From: Parasphingorhabdus sp. SCSIO 66989
Lineage (GTDB): Bacteria; Pseudomonadota; Alphaproteobacteria; Sphingomonadales; Sphingomonadaceae
Reading direction: 5' to 3'
Assembly (NCBI RefSeq): GCF_032852305.1
Contig: NZ_CP136594.1
Location: forward strand, 1,277,501-1,341,500
Length of the DNA: 64,000 nt
Positions 8,947 to 64,000 of the stretch are shown in pieces (the first letter of the stretch is position 1; each line of letters starts with the position of its first letter). The notes beneath the pieces are model-generated. The model was not told where the DNA came from. It was given only the letters and a program-made list of their open reading frames with translations, and ran no database searches. A program made the translations under genes and the position numbers.

Positions 8947-10404
8947 ATGGAGCCACTGGCATATCTGCTGACACAGGGCGGAGATGAGCGGATTACGCTT
9001 GACCCCGAAACCGGCACCAATCGCTATTATGCAACCCCTTATCCACGCGATACCGTCGCTTATGCGTCCTCGACTGCTAATGATATCAGCAATGATGCCT
9101 GGGCCCATCTGCAAGCAAACTGGCCAGACTTGACCGTGGACAGTGCGCTGGATGGAGCGGGCTATGCCGAGGCGCTGGATGCAATCCGGTCCCGGCTTTT
9201 ACAGGCCTATGATCTTGATGCGGATAGTCAGGTCATCTTCGCCGCTTCGGGCACTGATCTGGAATATATCGCCCTTCTGGCTGCGGCCGGTGATGCAGGG
9301 CAGCCGGTGCACAATATATTGCTCGGCGCCGATGAGGTCGGCAGTGGTTGTATCTACAGCGCCCAGGGGCAGTATTTCGCGGCGCAGACTTCGCTAGGAA
9401 TAGCCAGCGTCAAAGGCGAGCCGGTGGAAGGTTTGCCGCCCGTAACGCTGAGTGAGATTCCGGTGCGCGATAGCTTCGGTATGGCGCATGACAGTATCAC
9501 CATCACCAGCACCATGCGCGACATGATCACATTGGCGTTGCAGCGCGGCCAGAAGCCATTGCTGCATGTGGTGCATGGCTCAAAGACCGGGCTTATCCTG
9601 CCTGATCTGAATGAGGTTGACGCTTTACGTGCCGAATATGGCGACCGGATCGCCTTTGTGGTTGATGCCTGTCAGGCGCGTATCACCAGTTCGGCGCTCA
9701 GGGCCTATCTTGAGCGCGATATGCTGGTGCTGCTGACCGGCTCGAAATTTATGGGCGGCCCACCGTTTAACGGTTTTGCGATTGTCCCGGGGGGATTGAT
9801 GCGCAAAGCGGCGGCATTGCCGCTAGGCTATCAGTGCATTTTCCGCCGTGCGGAATGGCCTGCGCAATGGCCGGGACGCGATGCCCTGCCTGACAGCGGC
9901 AATCTGGGGCTTATTCTGAGATTATCTGCTTCGATCTTCGAGCTGGAGCGGTTCCAGCAAATCGCCATGGAGGACATCACCCGCATTGTCCGTGTATTCC
10001 AGAAAGCCACAGCGGCCTTGGTTGAGCAGATTGGCGGTTGTTCTGTTCTTCCATATGCGCCCGATCATCAGCTTGATGCCATCACCCATCCAATTGAGAT
10101 GCAGACTTTGGTGACGTTCGACCTGAACCGGGATCATAAGGGCGAGCGGATGTGCTTTGCCACTGCTGCGGCGATCCACAAACAGCTTATGGATCATGGT
10201 GTGCGTCTCGGCCAGCCGGTCCGCTGTCGCAGCATCGCCAGCGGCGACTATGCTGGGACGCTGCGTATCGGGTTGTCCATGCCGCAAATGGTGCATCTGG
10301 CGAAACTCGATGATGCTGCACTCGCAGAAACGCTGGCGGGCGATATGGAAAGCATCGCCAAGGCCTATCATCAGGTGACCCGGGAACCGATGGCGGCGGT
10401 TTAG
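8947..10404 (+). CDS. PLP-dependent aminotransferase-fold enzyme (class V-like), function unknown
   Basis: 485 residues with the layout of fold-type-I PLP enzymes. VIFAASGTDLEYIALLAA matches the phosphate-cup helix start, VVDACQARI holds the PLP-binding Asp and a following Gln, and LLTGSKFMGGPPFNG holds the probable Schiff-base Lys. The cofactor loop thus resembles cysteine desulfurase and class V enzymes, but the protein is longer and I do not recognise a named family. The start has AGGGTAGG upstream. It is divergent from an ATP-grasp ligase, suggesting one small-molecule pathway (inference). A palindromic repeat follows its stop. Confidence 0.7.
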   Translation: MEPLAYLLTQGGDERITLDPETGTNRYYATPYPRDTVAYASSTANDISNDAWAHLQANWPDLTVDSALDGAGYAEALDAIRSRLLQAYDLDADSQVIFAASGTDLEYIALLAAAGDAGQPVHNILLGADEVGSGCIYSAQGQYFAAQTSLGIASVKGEPVEGLPPVTLSEIPVRDSFGMAHDSITITSTMRDMITLALQRGQKPLLHVVHGSKTGLILPDLNEVDALRAEYGDRIAFVVDACQARITSSALRAYLERDMLVLLTGSKFMGGPPFNGFAIVPGGLMRKAAALPLGYQCIFRRAEWPAQWPGRDALPDSGNLGLILRLSASIFELERFQQIAMEDITRIVRVFQKATAALVEQIGGCSVLPYAPDHQLDAITHPIEMQTLVTFDLNRDHKGERMCFATAAAIHKQLMDHGVRLGQPVRCRSIASGDYAGTLRIGLSMPQMVHLAKLDDAALAETLAGDMESIAKAYHQVTREPMAAV

Positions 10405-56762: not shown

Positions 56763-56848
56763 GGACAGGTGGCCGAGTGGTTAAAGGCAGCAGACTGTAA
56801 ATCTGCCCGCGTGAGCGTACGCTGGTTCGAATCCAGCCCTGTCCACCA
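56763..56848 (+). tRNA. tRNA-Tyr (GTA anticodon), probable phage attachment site
   Basis: 86 nt with encoded CCA. Anticodon loop CTGTAAA gives GTA; a long variable arm follows. T-arm GCTGGTTCGAATCCAGC; acceptor GGACAGG pairs with CCTGTCC. A tyrosine integrase lies 148 bp downstream on the same strand, so the 3' part of this tRNA is the likely attB/attL identity segment. A matching 3' fragment should occur at the other end of the prophage, outside the window. Confidence 0.97.
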
Positions 56849-56996: not shown

Positions 56997-58208
56997 ATGG
57001 CACTGACGGACTTGAAGATCAAAAACGCCAAAGCAGGTGGAAAACCATATCGACGATTATCTGATGGGGGCGGGCTTTATATCGAAGTGAGACCGAGCGG
57101 TCGGAAGACCTGGTTTCTCGCCTATCGCCGCGACGGCAAGCAAATGAAAGTCCGTGGCGGACCATATTCCGAAATGTCTTTGGCCGATGCTCGCTTTTGG
57201 CGTGAGAAGGTCAAAGCTGAAATTCGCGCCGGCAACTATCCCACTTCCGACAAGCCCGATAAAGACAAGCCCTCGTTTGAAACCATCGCCCGCGAGTGGT
57301 TCGAGTTGCAGCAGTCTAAGTGGACCAAACGCTATGCTGATATTGTGATAGGCAGGCTGGAGAATGACCCTTTTCCCCTCTTCGGCGACCGCCCCATTGA
57401 TGAGGTCTCGCATGAAGAGATTTTGTCACTGATAGAGCGAATGGAACAGCGCGAGGTTTATGACCTTTTGCGCAGAACTCTTCGTTATGTCAGCCGTGTA
57501 ATGCGCTATGCGATTGCGACCAAAAGGGCGTCCTATAATCCGGTCCCTGATGTCAATGACGCGCTCAAGCCTAAGCCTAAGACCCAACATTACAGGCAGT
57601 TGAGTCTAAGCGATCTGCCGGACTTCTATGCGAAACTGCGCAAGTCCAATCACAGTGAAACCGTGAAGCTGGCGTTGCAATGGACGATCCTCACTTGGGC
57701 CAGGACATCTGAGACGAGGTTCTTCCGCCCGGAGGAAATTGAAGGCCGCGATACTGACGAACTATTGTGGCGGGTGCCTGCGGATCGCATGAAGATGGGC
57801 AGGGAGCATCTAGTTCCGCTGCCGCGCCAAGCAGGCCCATTGCTGGATCGGATCGAAACCTTGGCGCAAAAGATGGGTAGCCAATGGCAGTTCGCCCAAG
57901 TTCGCAATGCTCTAAAGCCGATTGACGAAAACGTGATGCTCTACTGCTTATACGATCTGGGTTATCTCGGAAAAGCGACCGTCCATGGCTTTAGGGGTAT
58001 GGCGTCCACTTTGGCGAACGAGCAGGTCGATGCGAACGACATGCGCGTTTTCCACGAGGACTGGATTGAGCGCCAATTGGCCCATGTGGAAGAGAACAAG
58101 ATTCGCGGAGCGTATAACGCCGCCGAATACCTTGGGCCTCGTCGTAAGATGATGCAGTGGTGGGCTGATTTCCTTGAGGAGCAGCAGGGTTTCTCTGAGC
58201 TGCTTTAA
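56997..58208 (+). CDS. int: Phage tyrosine integrase (P4 type with DUF4102 domain)
   Basis: About 403 residues. N-terminal arm-binding domain MALTDLKIKNAKAGGKPYRR and DGGGLYIEVRPSGRKTWFLA. Core domain residues: Arg in TWARTSETRFFRPEEI, Lys in KMGREHLVPLP, HxxR in TVHGFRGMASTLANE, and the nucleophile Tyr in RGAYNAAEYLGPRRKMMQWW. It drives site-specific integration at the adjacent tRNA-Tyr. ATG at 56997 is chosen as it opens the conserved MALTD domain. Confidence 0.95.
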   Translation: MALTDLKIKNAKAGGKPYRRLSDGGGLYIEVRPSGRKTWFLAYRRDGKQMKVRGGPYSEMSLADARFWREKVKAEIRAGNYPTSDKPDKDKPSFETIAREWFELQQSKWTKRYADIVIGRLENDPFPLFGDRPIDEVSHEEILSLIERMEQREVYDLLRRTLRYVSRVMRYAIATKRASYNPVPDVNDALKPKPKTQHYRQLSLSDLPDFYAKLRKSNHSETVKLALQWTILTWARTSETRFFRPEEIEGRDTDELLWRVPADRMKMGREHLVPLPRQAGPLLDRIETLAQKMGSQWQFAQVRNALKPIDENVMLYCLYDLGYLGKATVHGFRGMASTLANEQVDANDMRVFHEDWIERQLAHVEENKIRGAYNAAEYLGPRRKMMQWWADFLEEQQGFSELL

Positions 58209-58328: not shown

Positions 58329-58556
58329 ATGCCGTATCAGAACGTCTCACATAGCGATCCCAAATGGATGCGCTTGCCCGAAGTGATTGAGGCGACGACT
58401 CTGTCGAAGGCCACAATCTATCGCAAGATGGACGCCGGTATCTTTCCGCAAAGCCATCGGTTGAGGGACATTCGGGCTGTCGTATGGTTTCGGGATGAAG
58501 TCATGAAGTGGAAGCGTGACCAGGTGGTTTCCGAGGGGATCGGAGACCTGCTGTGA
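58329..58556 (+). CDS. AlpA-family phage regulator / excisionase
   Basis: 75 residues with the MerR-like helix-turn-helix of AlpA: MRLPEVIEATTLSKATIYRKMDAGIFPQ and AVVWFRDEVMKWKRD. Such proteins control integrase expression or excision. It ends VSEGIGDLL, one of the shared acidic-leucine tails of this prophage. Its stop overlaps the next GTG start. Confidence 0.9.
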   Translation: MPYQNVSHSDPKWMRLPEVIEATTLSKATIYRKMDAGIFPQSHRLRDIRAVVWFRDEVMKWKRDQVVSEGIGDLL

Positions 58557-59926
58557 CGCGGGCGTATTACAATGAGATCGACCCCCATGCTGCTCAATGG
58601 CTCCGTAACCTCATTGATGCCGGTCTGATCGCTTACGGAGATGTTGATGAGCGTGACATTCGAGACATCAAACCAGTCGAACTTGCAGGCTACACCCAAT
58701 GCCATTTCTTTGCGGGCATCGGAGTCTGGTCCTACGCCTTGCGGCTCGCAGGGTGGCCAGATGAACGACCAGTGTGGACCGGCAGTTGTCCGTGCCAACC
58801 TTTCAGCGGCGCAGGCAAAAGAAAAGGGACTGCTGACGAGCGGCACCTATGGCCATTCTGGCACTATCTCATCGAACAGTGCGAACCTGGTGTCGTCTTT
58901 GCAGAGCAGGTTGCGTCGAAGGACGGACTCGCTTGGCTCGACCTTGTACAAGCTGACCTGGAAGGAACGGGTTACACCTGCGGGCCGTTCGATCTGTGCG
59001 CTGCGGGCTTCGGTGCGCCGCACATCCGCCAAAGAACCTTCCTCGTCGCCCAAGCCCAAAACGCAGATGAGCGGGTGGGTTACAACAACACGCGATTGGA
59101 AAGACAGCGAGGGGATGGCGCTCGAACGACCGGACGGGCGATCACGGATAGACCAGTTGCCGAGGCAGGCGGCGGTGGCAGGTTGGCCGACCTCCTCGGC
59201 GACGGATGGGAAGCGGGGCGGAACGCTGACCCCCAAAATGACGGGGAAGTCCCTGACCCAATCGGTGCAATTCAATCTCGCCGGTTGGCCGACAGTGACG
59301 GCGATGGACGCCAATCGGGGCAAGGGAACGATCAGAGCGCACGACACGGGGATACCGTTACCACAAAGAGCGTCGATGGCGGGTTGGGCCACTCCTCACG
59401 AGAACTCGACCACGGGGCCGGGGACTCAAGGGCGTTCGGGCGGAATGAACATTCAGACGATGACGCAGTTGTCGGGATGGAACACGGCAGCGGCATCGGA
59501 CGGGAATGGGGGCAAGAGACCTCACCCGGATACGTCAATGACAGGCAAACACCCGTCCGGCAGGAAAGTGAACATGGGCTTGGCTTCTCAGGTTCATTTG
59601 GGCTTTCTGAACAAAGAGGAGATGGAGAAGCACGGCCCAGCCCGACTAACGGCTTCTGGCGAGATGCTGACTGGCTCTTCTGCCGGGATGGAAAGTGGAG
59701 GCCAGTTGAGTCCGGCACATTCCCTCTGGTTGATGGGTCTGCCTATCAGTTGGATTCTGGTGGCCCCCTTGAGAGCAAAAACCGGGCGAACCTCCTCAAA
59801 GGCTTCGGTAACGCAATCGTCAGCGAGGTCGCGGCATACTTCATCGCCACATTCCTCGAACACGAGCAGGATGCCGCTTTGGTTAATGGCCGAAGCCATG
59901 ACGATCTGATCGGGGACTTGTTATGA
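58553..59926 (+). CDS. Phage C5-cytosine DNA methyltransferase
   Basis: 457 residues. Motif [20 protein letters not shown], motif [17 protein letters not shown] with catalytic Cys, motif VI as FAEQV, motif [14 protein letters not shown], and motif [18 protein letters not shown]. Between VIII and X lie about 170 low-complexity residues rich in G, D, R and H; in that span a second frame is open. The late part [20 protein letters not shown] is typical of phage-encoded members. It starts at GTG overlapping alpA and ends [11 protein letters not shown]. The target sequence is unknown. Confidence 0.92.
58761..59909 (+). CDS. Overlapping long reading frame inside the methyltransferase gene
   Basis: 382 codons in the other forward frame, wholly inside the methyltransferase gene. 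The frame is open from further upstream; ATG at 58761 is chosen because AGGGTGG precedes it. It reads [35 protein letters not shown] and [10 protein letters not shown]. Then come five units of the form (A/S)GW.T...D ([66 protein letters not shown]), and finally [19 protein letters not shown] recall this same protein pattern from other prophages, which favours true dual coding. Function unknown. Confidence 0.55.
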
Positions 59927-60630
59927 TGAGCGGGATTGACGACCTTCTCGGGACCAAGCCGCAAGAAGAGTCGGTGCGGGAGCGCCGGTTGAACAAACTT
60001 GCCAAGGATCGGGCGATCAAAGCCGCAGGCAGTGGGACTACCTTTGTTGAAATGGGCGCGTTGAAGCGCCCGGTATCAATGAATTTTCTCTCTGAGGTCT
60101 TCAACATGGACCCCAAGACGGTGCGGACCAGGTTGGTGCGGTGTCCCATTTTGGGAATGGCAGGCGGTAATCGCCCGGTTTATGATTTCAAGACTGCTTG
60201 CCAATATCTGCTGCCGCCCAAAATGACGACCGATGAGTTCATTCGGACACTCAACGCCGCCAAACTACCCCCGGAAGTCAACAAGGTGTTCTGGCAGGCT
60301 CAGCGCGAACGGTTGCGGTATTTGAGGGACGCCGGGGAAGTCTGGCACACCACCGATCTGCTCGACCTTCTCGGCCAGGTGAATATGACCTTCAAGGACC
60401 GCATTGATATGTGGGTTGAGGACATACGCGAGATGAAGGGTATCTCCGATGAGAATATCCTGAAAATCGAGCAGATGACCCATGCGCTGAAAAGCGATCT
60501 CTATGAGGCATTGGTCTCCATGCCATCGCAAGGGGAAACCCTTAGCCTGCGTGACAAGGAAGACCCGCTCGCCCCTGAGCAAAGCAAGAATACCGAAATT
60601 GACGAAGGGCAGATCAGCGATGCGCTTTAG
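59923..60630 (+). CDS. Phage terminase small subunit-like protein (DUF1441)
   Basis: 235 residues. An N-terminal [14 protein letters not shown] tag, then a DNA-binding-like part MNFLSEVFNMDPKTVRTRLV resembling the winged helix of Nu1-type small subunits, and a helical remainder. Position directly before the large terminase module and family resemblance support the call. Overlaps the methyltransferase stop (ATGA). Confidence 0.78.
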   Translation: MMSGIDDLLGTKPQEESVRERRLNKLAKDRAIKAAGSGTTFVEMGALKRPVSMNFLSEVFNMDPKTVRTRLVRCPILGMAGGNRPVYDFKTACQYLLPPKMTTDEFIRTLNAAKLPPEVNKVFWQAQRERLRYLRDAGEVWHTTDLLDLLGQVNMTFKDRIDMWVEDIREMKGISDENILKIEQMTHALKSDLYEALVSMPSQGETLSLRDKEDPLAPEQSKNTEIDEGQISDAL

Positions 60631-61051
60631 ACCGGAACAATATGACGCCGTAGCGAAGCGGATTGTCACCAACAACCCGAACATGCTTGTGCCGTGGTTT
60701 CTGATGGCGTCTTACGCCTATTACGAGAAGGACGATCCGTTCCTGACCGACTCCTTCTATGACAAGATGTGCTTAATGCTCATCAAACAGTGGGATCAGA
60801 TCGAACATCGCCACAAAACCTTCATCGATCGAGATGCGCTAGGGGCCGGATCAGCATATCATATCGACTGGTCCCAATTGCCGACGATCATAAAGGACGC
60901 GGCAGACCATCTTACAGCTAAGTACCACTCTTTAGCCACTATCGGTACACCCGCCCCAACCACATTAGACGATCTGCTCGGCGATGTTGCTGAGCCGGAA
61001 ACGATTGATGACCTGCTCGGCGGCAGTGTGAAGATTGACGACTTGCTATGA
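60620..61051 (+). CDS. Phage protein of unknown function with three DDLL motifs
   Basis: 143 residues. MASYAYYEKDDPFLTDSFYDKMCLML resembles the short N-terminal helix pair that precedes NAD-dependent ligase adenylation domains, but no catalytic motif follows. The C-terminal third carries TTLDDLLGD, ETIDDLLGG and KIDDLL as its last residues. It overlaps both neighbours (start inside the terminase small gene, ATGA with the large one), so it belongs to the packaging operon. The start is set at the first ATG after GAAGGG. Confidence 0.7.
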   Translation: MRFRPEQYDAVAKRIVTNNPNMLVPWFLMASYAYYEKDDPFLTDSFYDKMCLMLIKQWDQIEHRHKTFIDRDALGAGSAYHIDWSQLPTIIKDAADHLTAKYHSLATIGTPAPTTLDDLLGDVAEPETIDDLLGGSVKIDDLL

Positions 61052-63165
61052 AACTGCCCGAAGCCAGATTCAGTTCAATGGAGCATATCGTTGCCGCGTC
61101 GGCGGAGAGCGTTCGGCCCCCTGAAAGGCTAAGCGTGGCCGAGGCGTCGCAATATCATATCGTCAATAATCCCGGCTCCCATGTTGGCCCTTTCGATCTC
61201 AACAAAGCCCCATATCTCGTCGAGCCGATGAACGAACTGACGAGCCTTGATCTCAAGGGATTGGTGTTTGTCGGTCCAGCACGTACCGGCAAGTCAGCAA
61301 TGTTCATCAACTGGCTCTGTCATACCGCAATTTGCGATCCTGCCGACATGCTGGTGGTGCATATGACCCAATCGACAGCGAGGGACTGGTCGCAGGCCGA
61401 TCTTGATAAGGCAGTAAGAAACTCACCTGAGTTGCGCAGCCGCATGGTCCCTGGTCGGCAAAATGACAATGTGCATGACAAAGCATTTCTCTCAGGTATG
61501 CGACTGCTCATCAAATGGCCCTCAATCACCGAATTGTCAGGCAAAACAATCCCCCGTCAATTCATCATGGACTATGACCGCATCCCCGACTCTATTGGTG
61601 GTGAGGGTAATGCGTTTGACCTCACCAGGAAGCGCGGGCAGACGTTCAAGAGGCGGGCGATGTGTGCGGTTGAGTCCAGCCCAGGCCGAGAGGTCACTAA
61701 CCCCAAATGGATAGCCTCATCACCGCACGAAGCGCCACCGACGACCGGAATCCTCGACCTCTATAATCGCGGCGACCGACGCCGATGGTATTGGCAATGC
61801 CCGCAATGTCATGAGGCATTTGAACCATCCTTCGACAAATTGGTGTACCCGGATTCACGCGATCACATGGAAGCGGCTGAGCAGGTCGTCATGTGTTGCC
61901 CCCATTGCGGCTACACCATGGAACCAGACCAACAATACGAACTGAACCTCGGCGGTAAATGGATCAAGGACGGTGCCATTTGGTTGCCTGACGGCAGCGT
62001 CGTACCAAAGAGCGGTCACACCATTCGACGTAGCGGGATCGCTTCATTTTGGATGAAGGGGCCAGCCGCAGCCTTCACCACATGGAAAGAACTGGTGGTG
62101 AAGCACCTTGACGCTGTGGAAGCGTGGGAAAAGAACGCGGATGAGGAAGCCTTGCGCACCACAATCAACGTGGACCAAGGTGAGCCTTACATTCCTAAAG
62201 CCCTTGAAGCCGGAAGACTACCAGAAGAACTCGCAGCTCGTGCGCAGCATTGGGGCGGCACACGGACAGAACCAGTTGTTCCCGAAGGTGTGCGCTTCCT
62301 GATTGCTACGGTTGACGTGCAGGCTCGATCATTCGTTGTACAGGTCCATGGTATCGGCGTCGGCGGCGATGTTTGGCTCGTCGATATGTTCAAGATCAGG
62401 AAAAGCAACACTCGTCTCGATGACAATGGCGAGCATATGATCCTTGATCCAGCCGGTTACATTGAGGACTGGTCCACAATAACCGAAATGGTGATCGAGA
62501 AGACTTACCCTCTGGCCGATGACAGCGGGCGCCGGATGCAGGTGAAACTTGTCGGGTGTGACTCTGGCGGTAAGGCCGGTGTGACCGCACGAGCCTATGA
62601 GTTTTGGCGATCATTACGGGACGACGAGATCGGCCGGCAGCATCATAATCGCTTTCAGCTTATCAAGGGTGAGCCTTCACCCAAAGCACCACGTTACCGG
62701 CGTGACTATCCTGACTCCAAGCGCAAAGATCGTAATAGCGGTGCGCGGGGCGATGTACCTGTTGTCTTTCTGAACTCCAACACTCTCAAAGATCAGATCA
62801 GCGGTATGCTCAATCGCTCCGATGCAGCCGGTGGACGGGTGAACTTCCCGATCTGGTATGATGAAAGCGGCAAGCAGGTGGACATATCCTGGCTGTATTC
62901 TCAGCTTACCGCCGAGGTCCGGTCTGACAAGGGGTGGGTATCCAGCAGTGGGAAACGCAATGAAGCGTGGGACTTGCTCTATTACTGTGTCGGCCTTCTG
63001 CTTGATAGCCGGATCGCATTTGAGACGATTGACTGGAACAACCCGCCTGCATGGGCCGCTGAGTGGGACGTGAATACGCTTGTGTTTGAAGCCGAAGACG
63101 GGCCGCGATTCACAGAAACAACGAAGAAACGCGATTTAAGTAAGTTGGGCGAAATACTCGCTTAA
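61048..63165 (+). CDS. Phage terminase large subunit (GpA family)
   Basis: 705 residues. Motor domain with Walker A-like LVFVGPARTGKSAMF and a candidate Walker B RQFIMDYDRI. A zinc-binding insert is present (CPQCHEAFEPS ... CCPHCGYTME). The nuclease domain begins near FLIATVDVQARSFVVQV with further acidic sites in VKLVGCDSGG. It packages DNA into proheads. It starts at an ATGA overlap and is the last of the tightly overlapping early packaging genes. Confidence 0.94.
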   Translation: MKLPEARFSSMEHIVAASAESVRPPERLSVAEASQYHIVNNPGSHVGPFDLNKAPYLVEPMNELTSLDLKGLVFVGPARTGKSAMFINWLCHTAICDPADMLVVHMTQSTARDWSQADLDKAVRNSPELRSRMVPGRQNDNVHDKAFLSGMRLLIKWPSITELSGKTIPRQFIMDYDRIPDSIGGEGNAFDLTRKRGQTFKRRAMCAVESSPGREVTNPKWIASSPHEAPPTTGILDLYNRGDRRRWYWQCPQCHEAFEPSFDKLVYPDSRDHMEAAEQVVMCCPHCGYTMEPDQQYELNLGGKWIKDGAIWLPDGSVVPKSGHTIRRSGIASFWMKGPAAAFTTWKELVVKHLDAVEAWEKNADEEALRTTINVDQGEPYIPKALEAGRLPEELAARAQHWGGTRTEPVVPEGVRFLIATVDVQARSFVVQVHGIGVGGDVWLVDMFKIRKSNTRLDDNGEHMILDPAGYIEDWSTITEMVIEKTYPLADDSGRRMQVKLVGCDSGGKAGVTARAYEFWRSLRDDEIGRQHHNRFQLIKGEPSPKAPRYRRDYPDSKRKDRNSGARGDVPVVFLNSNTLKDQISGMLNRSDAAGGRVNFPIWYDESGKQVDISWLYSQLTAEVRSDKGWVSSSGKRNEAWDLLYYCVGLLLDSRIAFETIDWNNPPAWAAEWDVNTLVFEAEDGPRFTETTKKRDLSKLGEILA

Positions 63166-63225
63166 CGGGTTATTATGATTCACCAAATATAACCTGGTTG
63201 TATTTTGGCAATAAGGAATCGAACC

Positions 63226-63555
63226 ATGGTCAACAAAATCGCAGCTTTTCTCTTTTGGGGCTTTTTCGGTACTATCGGCGTAGTAATCGGTTTGATGTAC
63301 ATTTCGGGCGGACACACCGAGCGTAACCCTCGCTCATGCGAGGAAGGTTGGGATTCTGTTTACGCGGCTGAGCGCGAACATCTCAAGCGGTTGGCCGTTT
63401 ATGGACGCGACGACGATTACGAGCGCACTTCGGAACGAGTTATGAAAAGAGCAAGCGGTGGATGGAACGTCTCACTATTCACAAAAAAGGGGAATAATGT
63501 TTATGCAGTAAAACCCGACTGTTCCGTGTCATTTATCATGTCAAATGAAATATAG
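63226..63555 (+). CDS. Small membrane-anchored phage protein, candidate moron
   Basis: 109 residues: membrane helix IAAFLFWGFFGTIGVVIGLMYI then a soluble, charged part with two Cys (PRSCEEGW and KPDCSVSF). AAGGA precedes the ATG. Unlike its neighbours it has AT-rich non-coding gaps on both sides (60 and 93 bp) and is itself AT-richer. That fits an independently expressed cargo gene. Family not recognised. Confidence 0.65.
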   Translation: MVNKIAAFLFWGFFGTIGVVIGLMYISGGHTERNPRSCEEGWDSVYAAEREHLKRLAVYGRDDDYERTSERVMKRASGGWNVSLFTKKGNNVYAVKPDCSVSFIMSNEI

Positions 63556-63574
63556 ATTCACATTTTATGTGAAT
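63556..63574. terminator. Small perfect inverted repeat after the candidate moron gene
   Basis: ATTCACAT / ATGTGAAT with a 3-base spacer, directly after the stop codon, in AT-rich DNA. It could be a weak terminator or a protein site; there is no clear T-run. Confidence 0.4.
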
Positions 63575-63648
63575 AATACTGATATAAAACAATAGGTTAT
63601 TTCAATATTTAATTGATTCGGTCTGGTCATATTGTATTTTTATGCAAT

Positions 63649-63861
63649 ATGCTTGACGAACAACAACTGCTTGATGAGGCCAAAGCGGCGTACCACCGTC
63701 TCATGATCGGTGAGTCGGTTGTTGAAGTGCGCGATCATTCGGGTGAGAGTATCCGTTACCAGCCCGCGACTGCCCACAAACTTCTTTCCTACATTCGCAG
63801 CATGGAGCCGAATTTCGCGGTTCCAGTTGGTCTCGGTAATGCCCCTTTGAGGTTTCTCTAA
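63649..63861 (+). CDS. gpW-family head-tail joining protein
   Basis: 70 residues: QQLLDEAKAAYHRLMIGESVVEV, RDHSGESIRYQPATAHKLLSYIRSM, the compact pattern of lambda gpW, which completes heads and joins tails. ATG at 63649 is chosen because the domain starts there. Position after the terminase large gene and before the probable portal gene matches lambda order (A-W-B). Confidence 0.85.
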   Translation: MLDEQQLLDEAKAAYHRLMIGESVVEVRDHSGESIRYQPATAHKLLSYIRSMEPNFAVPVGLGNAPLRFL

Positions 63862-64000
63862 TGGGCGCGCCGGTCCAAATTGATGACCTTCTCGGCCTAG
63901 CCGGGGGAGTCGGCTCCGATCCTGCTATCGTCCCGGCAGAAGGAGTCGGCTCTGTAAAATCGGTCGCCGGTGGTGCCTATGATGGCGCTAACCGATTTGA
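63861..64000 (+). CDS. Probable phage portal protein, N-terminus only
   Basis: The first 46 codons lie in the window: MGAPVQIDDLLGLAGGVGSD, a Gly/Val-rich linker, and GGAYDGANRF at the edge. The call rests on lambda-like order (portal follows gpW) and on the AYDGA start resembling lambda portal proteins. It carries the IDDLLG tag at its N-terminus. The start overlaps the gpW stop by one base (TAATG). Confidence 0.55.
   Translation, partial: MGAPVQIDDLLGLAGGVGSDPAIVPAEGVGSVKSVAGGAYDGANRF

Follow-up and report, generated by a model that had tools for sequence, protein, structure and literature searches.

A short acidic peptide with a hydrophobic tip is common to about ten otherwise unrelated proteins of a prophage in Parasphingorhabdus sp. 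SCSIO 66989. It takes the form (I/L)DDLL(G), or the shorter xDLL* (where the asterisk marks the end of the protein), and will be called the tag. The prophage begins in the window, i.e. the whole stretch of 64,000 nucleotides analysed (positions 1,277,501 to 1,341,500 of contig NZ_CP136594.1), and extends past its right end; positions are numbered from the first letter of the window throughout. The tag forms the tip of the single-stranded DNA-binding protein (SSB) of the prophage, lies at flexible protein ends and is conserved in close relatives, and in other phages it has other spellings that change in concert on different proteins of the same phage. We conclude that it is probably a docking peptide of the kind found on SSB tails, a judgement that concerns docking as such and does not extend to the groove of the SSB as the receptor.

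The left part of the prophage has a series of tagged genes on the forward strand. An initial reading of the letters (the sequence-only reading) had noted the peptide on at least five consecutive proteins, and every one of the peptides it named is present. AlpA (58329-58556) and the C5-cytosine methyltransferase (58553-59926) have the short form GDLL only, as IGDLL* at 58539-58556 (GIGDLL* from 58539) and IGDLL* at 59909-59926 (DDLIGDLL* in the protein). The full form IDDLLG is found near the N-terminus of the small terminase subunit TerS (59935-59952; gene 59923-60630, DUF1441-like, phrog_141) and near that of the lambda-family portal (63879-63896; gene 63861-65561), which starts MGAPVQIDDLLG. 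Between them a protein resembling Nlig-Ia (60620-61051) has three copies in its tail, LDDLLG at 60965-60982 (in LDDLLGD), IDDLLG at 61004-61021 (in IDDLLGG, within the modelled tail) and IDDLL* at 61034-61051, the last aligned at the extreme C-terminus. The tag is more widespread than had been noted, since the integrase (from 56961 or 56997 to 58208) also ends in a weak form, FSELL* at 58191-58208 (protein end GFSELL*).

The suggestion that more copies be sought to the right was borne out. Two proteins encoded on the minus strand end in the tag, an N6/N4-methyltransferase (87399-88436, SIDDLL*) and one of 106 aa (89627-89947, TGDLL*). So do the head-region protein whose gene follows that of the major capsid protein (68551-68991, QGLL*), an early coiled-coil protein (105792-106499, VEDELL*) and the T7-gp2.5-type SSB (108103-108813, AIDDELL*), where the tag is the hydrophobic tip of an acidic disordered tail. 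The primase (gene 102827-105322, minus strand) has an internal IDDLLG in a linker. Major capsid and tail proteins are without the tag, and most carriers are SSB, primase, exonuclease, methyltransferases and integrase, so that the idea of a tag mainly on structural proteins, or of a virion packaging signal, was not sustained. The tagged ends are predicted to be disordered in structure models; residues 122-142 of the Nlig-Ia-like protein, for which the likeliest start is 60620/60623 (hence 142-143 aa rather than 182 aa), have pLDDT <50.

These likenesses exceed chance. The pattern [DEG][DE]LL is C-terminal in 7 of 74 prophage proteins and in none of 440 host proteins, and the N-terminal motif, present on TerS and the portal, is equally absent from the 440. 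We also used a motif-free scan, scoring the similarity of C-terminal 5-mers among non-homologous proteins against a null sampled immediately inward of those ends; 13 pairs were obtained in the prophage where 1.0 was expected (z=12). The codons of the tags differ synonymously (GAT/GAC, CTT/CTG/TTG, CTC/CTA/CTG), and the tag is therefore not a DNA repeat, as the sequence-only reading had argued of a recent one. On the same synonymous changes, together with the N-terminal copies, we rejected a TerS binding site or a stop-start overlap as its origin.

Close relatives (L034-L043 and L058, with TerL 77-82% identical) keep the tag. Both TerS and the portal have IDDLLG near their start (IADLLG in TerS of L040), and the Nlig-Ia-like tail has IDDLLG or a near variant once or twice before a last copy ending LL* (i.e. 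2-3 copies in all). AlpA ends in VSDLL*, GIGDLL*, GLGDLL* or LEGLL* (xDLL* or xGLL*), and the C5-methyltransferase in LIGDLL* or LIEDLL*. When six TerS sequences are aligned the six tag residues are invariant, and the linker that follows is variable in sequence and length up to the conserved core.

Phages with TerL 54-62% identical have tags in the same places but spelled otherwise. A literal search for IDDLLG gave no match in distant relatives, and it was direct reading of the termini that then revealed the other spellings. One such phage has IDALIG on both TerS and portal and ..GLIG* on AlpA; another has FDDLLG on TerS, FEDLLG on the portal, and C-termini FEELLG*, FEDLLG* and FADLLG*. The integrase ends of related phages (AIGKLL*, RLIG*, GLIG*) also match the local tag. 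Characteristic endings are DDLLG* in Ruegeria DSS3-P1, DDDI* in Rhizobium X2_30, DDDIA*/DDVI* in Loktanella pCB2051-A, DDLV*/DELI* in Klebsiella N133, EDLI*/EDGLI* in Phobos, EDLI* in S-ESS1, (D/E)DEV* or DDV* on nine proteins of Salmonella phage Chi, DDL*/DEL* in Burkholderia AH2, EDIGL* in Stenotrophomonas Suzuki, DLLV*/DLLI* in Rhodobacter RcCWillis, and DDEL* in both Serratia Smarc1 and Xanthomonas FoX4. These isolated phages, the nearest to the prophage, are Casjensviridae, and by TerL and gene order the prophage appears to be of the same type. The recurring carriers are SSB, DUF2800 exonuclease, Prim-Pol primase, the coiled-coil protein, the small protein after the major capsid gene (the lambda FI position), TerS and methyltransferases, to which Chi adds RdgC, a PAPS-reductase-like protein and DUF7609. 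On TerS the tag is N-terminal mainly in alphaproteobacterial phages and C-terminal in Chi, N133, S-ESS1 and Smarc1. The absence from homologues that was to have marked the motif as chance or local duplication was thus not what we found; it is kept or respelled.

Comparison of the termini indicates that the spelling is predicted by the identity of the phage and not by that of the gene. C-terminal tip similarity was examined in 15 phages, one per clade, with permutation of the phage labels; the phages and representative tags, here and in the distance tests below, were our choice, and p values are uncorrected for multiple tests. Different genes of the same phage scored 10.2, compared with 5.5 for the same gene in different phages and a background of 5.6. 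The tip of SSB was significantly associated with those of the coiled-coil protein (p=1.5e-4), the FI-position protein (0.003), the primase (0.004) and the exonuclease (0.02). The control families TerL, polymerase and VRR-NUC were not significant, while SNF2, which is tagged in Phobos, was marginal (0.035); the C-terminus of TerS also failed to reach significance (0.16). In the motif-free scan z was 37 for Smarc1, 28 for Chi and 24 for G296, followed by values of 18, 16, 15 and 14 and the 12 of the prophage. It was close to zero for lambda, P22, N4, HK97 and the host, and 2.6 for T4. T7 gave z=6, with gp2.5/gp4 (whose shared acidic tail is known) among four pairs. At 67 independent SSB loci, most of them from other phages, 17 neighbours matched the local SSB tail, against 1.3 from the internal null and 4.6 when tails were swapped. 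The matching neighbour was often a gene of ~430 aa, exonuclease-like in size and place. A scan using the SSB of L034 alone gave no matches. In these comparisons the number of carriers forms a gradient, from two in T7 through few in other SSB-bearing phages to about ten in Casjensviridae.

The SSB of the prophage matches PF10991 (E=8e-16), and on the strength of its family it is likely to bind single-stranded DNA. Its orthologue in L034 gives a high-confidence model that matches ORF6 of Enc34 (5ODJ, 5ODL) and T7 gp2.5 (1JE5). We note that T7 gp2.5 (W15, 9266-9721) itself matches PF10991 at E=3.4e-5, under the curated cut-off, giving the structurally known relation a counterpart at the sequence level. 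In several phages a second shared acidic element, approximately F(D/E)D(L/V)DD (FDDLDD, FEDFDD), follows directly on the SSB fold and recurs at the C-terminal end of the DUF2800 exonuclease (e.g. L004:10304-11014 for SSB and L004:9042-10301 for exonuclease); unlike the tag, it is modelled in SSB with fair confidence.

Two papers (PMC12593628, PMC5686142) provide precedents for docking. In T7, basic patches on the polymerase gp5 are reported to hold the acidic tails of gp4, while polymerase and helicase are the likely contacts of the gp2.5 tail. Crystals of gp2.5, of Enc34 SSB and of two DUF2815 proteins all have a C-terminus that touches neighbouring molecules, and with Enc34 SSB this acidic end is in the groove of a neighbour's beta-sheet (PMC5686142). 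By analogy the tag would bind a receptor, and this may well be phage-encoded. The tip of SSB is common to some ten proteins of no mutual relation (exonuclease-side and replication proteins, methyltransferases, integrase, excisionase, TerS, the head-region protein and the ligase-like protein). In the mechanism we propose, each of them could occupy a receptor that reads the SSB tip, and the carriers would thereby be brought together at the sites of replication, recombination, modification and packaging of the phage DNA. The sequence-only reading had taken the peptide for a short linear motif recognised by one partner. Such a motif, with a partner that is inferred, best accounts for a conserved tag beside a diverging linker, for disordered ends and for concerted spelling.

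Our guess for the receptor is the groove of the SSB itself, at rather below an even chance; another phage protein is a possible but less probable candidate, the DNA polymerase a somewhat weaker one, and a host protein the weakest. The groove is favoured because the Casjensviridae genomes examined that have the tag also have SSB, while their polymerases are of two unrelated kinds, and because the distance between tags weakly follows that between SSBs (Mantel test, r=0.22, p=0.03) but does not follow that between polymerases. Several observations weigh against a docking tag of this type or against SSB as its reader. The correlation with SSB distance disappears once TerL distance is controlled, and it is therefore no proof of an SSB receptor. 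An AlphaFold2 model leaves the SSB tail undocked. The N-terminal and internal copies show that a free carboxylate is not strictly required, in contrast to E. coli SSB-Ct. The N-termini of the portal (p=0.63) and of TerS (0.14) do not follow the phage spelling significantly, and strict-scan z is low in some relatives (0.1 in Loktanella, 0.8 in G299, 0.9 in S-ESS1 and 1.7 in G303).

We have considered other explanations of the shared peptide. A docking peptide held by the phage DNA polymerase, as the basic patches of T7 gp5 hold acidic tails, has its precedent in the gp4 tails on gp5 and in the association of the gp2.5 tail with polymerase (PMC12593628, PMC5686142), and the polymerase of the prophage and of most relatives is itself untagged. 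Yet the tagged phages use two unrelated polymerases, near-identical tags (Smarc1, FoX4) occur alongside different polymerases, and tag distance does not follow polymerase distance; we consider this unlikely. The two kinds, family A (Chi, N133 and others) and phrog_1252 with B-like motifs (the prophage, AH2, FoX4 and others), occupy the same place in the replication module. Spellings that differ among phages of different hosts could instead reflect binding to a protein of the host, such as a hub for replication, polar or chaperone functions. However, phages of related hosts have different spellings (DDLLG* in Ruegeria, DDDI/DDVI* in Loktanella, DLLV* in Rhodobacter) that are nevertheless common to the phage's own SSB tail, and the enterobacterial lambda, P22 and HK97 show no such tag; we regard a host receptor as improbable.

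The remaining explanations do without docking of SSB-tail type. The tag might be a degron or anti-degron that sets when a protease removes early phage proteins, as most copies are at extreme C-termini with a hydrophobic last residue. Such a signal would be hard to reconcile with copies near N-termini, in a linker and in tandem, with the presence of the tag on the tails of SSB, a family with an established role in interactions, or with an acidic phage-specific spelling that is unexpected for a host protease signal, and it is very improbable. Scarcely credible is a likeness due merely to generic acidic tails of DNA-binding proteins, to a DNA repeat or to stop-start overlaps with ribosome-binding sites. 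Acidic tails are indeed common, and several tags are at gene overlaps (GGAGACCTGCTGTGA at AlpA), but the codon differences and N-terminal copies described above argue against this, as does the use of a null from the same tails and the fall from 17 to 4.6 matches when tails were swapped between loci.

Beyond docking of SSB-tail type itself, a larger proposal is that the tag acts as a private password in tailed phages of this family. One phage-specific terminal peptide, read by one phage-encoded receptor and co-evolving with it as a unit in each phage, would physically link replication, recombination, modification, integration and packaging; we give this rather less than an even chance.

The portal copy may be an older portal element with its own role, because most of the family has its N-terminal motif (hydrophobic-x-x-L-L-G), and the lambda portal has IPTLLG in the same place. 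In lambda the first 20 residues of the portal are cut off by the head protease. TerL (61048-63165, forward strand, GpA type) is untagged; its own C-terminal motif L[GA]xxL[GA]* stays the same from phage to phage whatever the tag, and was rejected as part of it.

The prophage (56829-113112, ~56.3 kb) is bounded by a 20-bp direct repeat at the 3' end of tRNA-Tyr, with copies at 56829 (56829-56848, forward strand) and at 113093, beyond the window. Genes were called mostly with a simple in-house caller. Those at the left side are integrase, AlpA, C5-methyltransferase, TerS, the Nlig-Ia-like protein, GpA-type TerL, gpW, lambda-type portal and protease. Among isolated phages the best matches of TerL are Casjensviridae (~50-56% identity), and the prophage has the TerL and head gene order of that family and its module of Prim-Pol primase, PF10991 SSB, DUF2800 exonuclease, VRR-NUC and SNF2 helicase. 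The Nlig-Ia-like protein has the N-terminal domain of NAD-dependent ligase without the ligase core, between TerS and TerL. Small proteins of this type occur in many phages, several annotated as 'putative NAD-dependent DNA ligase' or 'terminase small subunit'. The prophage protein had no homologue among 295 further genomes of the order, and its relatives in marine viral contigs are without the tail, which is thus an add-on. The coiled-coil protein and the FI-position head protein, both tagged, have a common HeH/LEM-like segment (..RSTAIKAI..) and both match phrog_29632. A small predicted membrane protein (63205-63555, 116 aa, no family match) lies between TerL and gpW, where a relative (G297) has a similar small gene.

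Among the closest known systems is that of T7, whose SSB (gp2.5) and primase-helicase (gp4), although unrelated, are replication proteins that both end in an acidic, disordered stretch with a hydrophobic residue last (ADEDGDF* and SNDTDF*). The SSBs belong to one structural family, and SSB and primase-helicase share a tip in Chi, N133, DSS3-P1 and X2_30 as in T7, while the primase copy of the prophage is internal. By contrast with the two carriers of T7 there are about ten here, including packaging, modification and integration proteins; the last residue is L, V, I, G or A where T7 has Phe, copies may be N-terminal, internal or tandem, and the spelling varies between phages. The E. coli SSB tip DDDIPF also has acidic residues before a hydrophobic tip on a flexible tail, but there one carrier has many readers, whereas here the carriers are many, and no tag ends in PF. 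Enc34 SSB (ORF6, 5ODJ/5ODL) is of the same family as the prophage SSB and from a related phage lineage, and the passages of its description that were read (PMC5686142) do not mention sharing of the tail tip with other phage proteins.

Short hydrophobic peptides at the ends of DNA enzymes with no other kinship, methyltransferases and ligases among them, bind PCNA or the beta-clamp. The tag resembles them in these respects, but it does not fit the beta-clamp consensus of Gln at position 1 with an L-F/L-L core, being acidic, without Gln and mostly without an aromatic residue, and with I, L, F, V or an acidic residue at position 1 of the aligned tags; we rejected it as a beta-clamp motif. No earlier description of the tag was found in full-text literature searches, whose reach excluded most subscription papers. 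An acidic tail common to the replication proteins of one phage is already known from T7; what appears to be new is how many and how varied the carriers are, that the spelling is specific to the phage, and that copies are also placed N-terminally, internally and in tandem.

Because the spelling is phage-specific, the tag can serve as a predictor of membership of the machinery from sequence alone, e.g. for DUF2800, DUF7609, DUF7443 and the coiled-coil protein, and it makes the question of the receptor directly testable in isolated phages. If our interpretation is true, the idea of a shared acidic tail, which in T7 concerns two proteins of the replisome, would apply to much of the DNA machinery of a phage, packaging included. 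It would also give a physical answer to how replication is coupled to packaging, and to how the enzymes are kept on the phage's own DNA.

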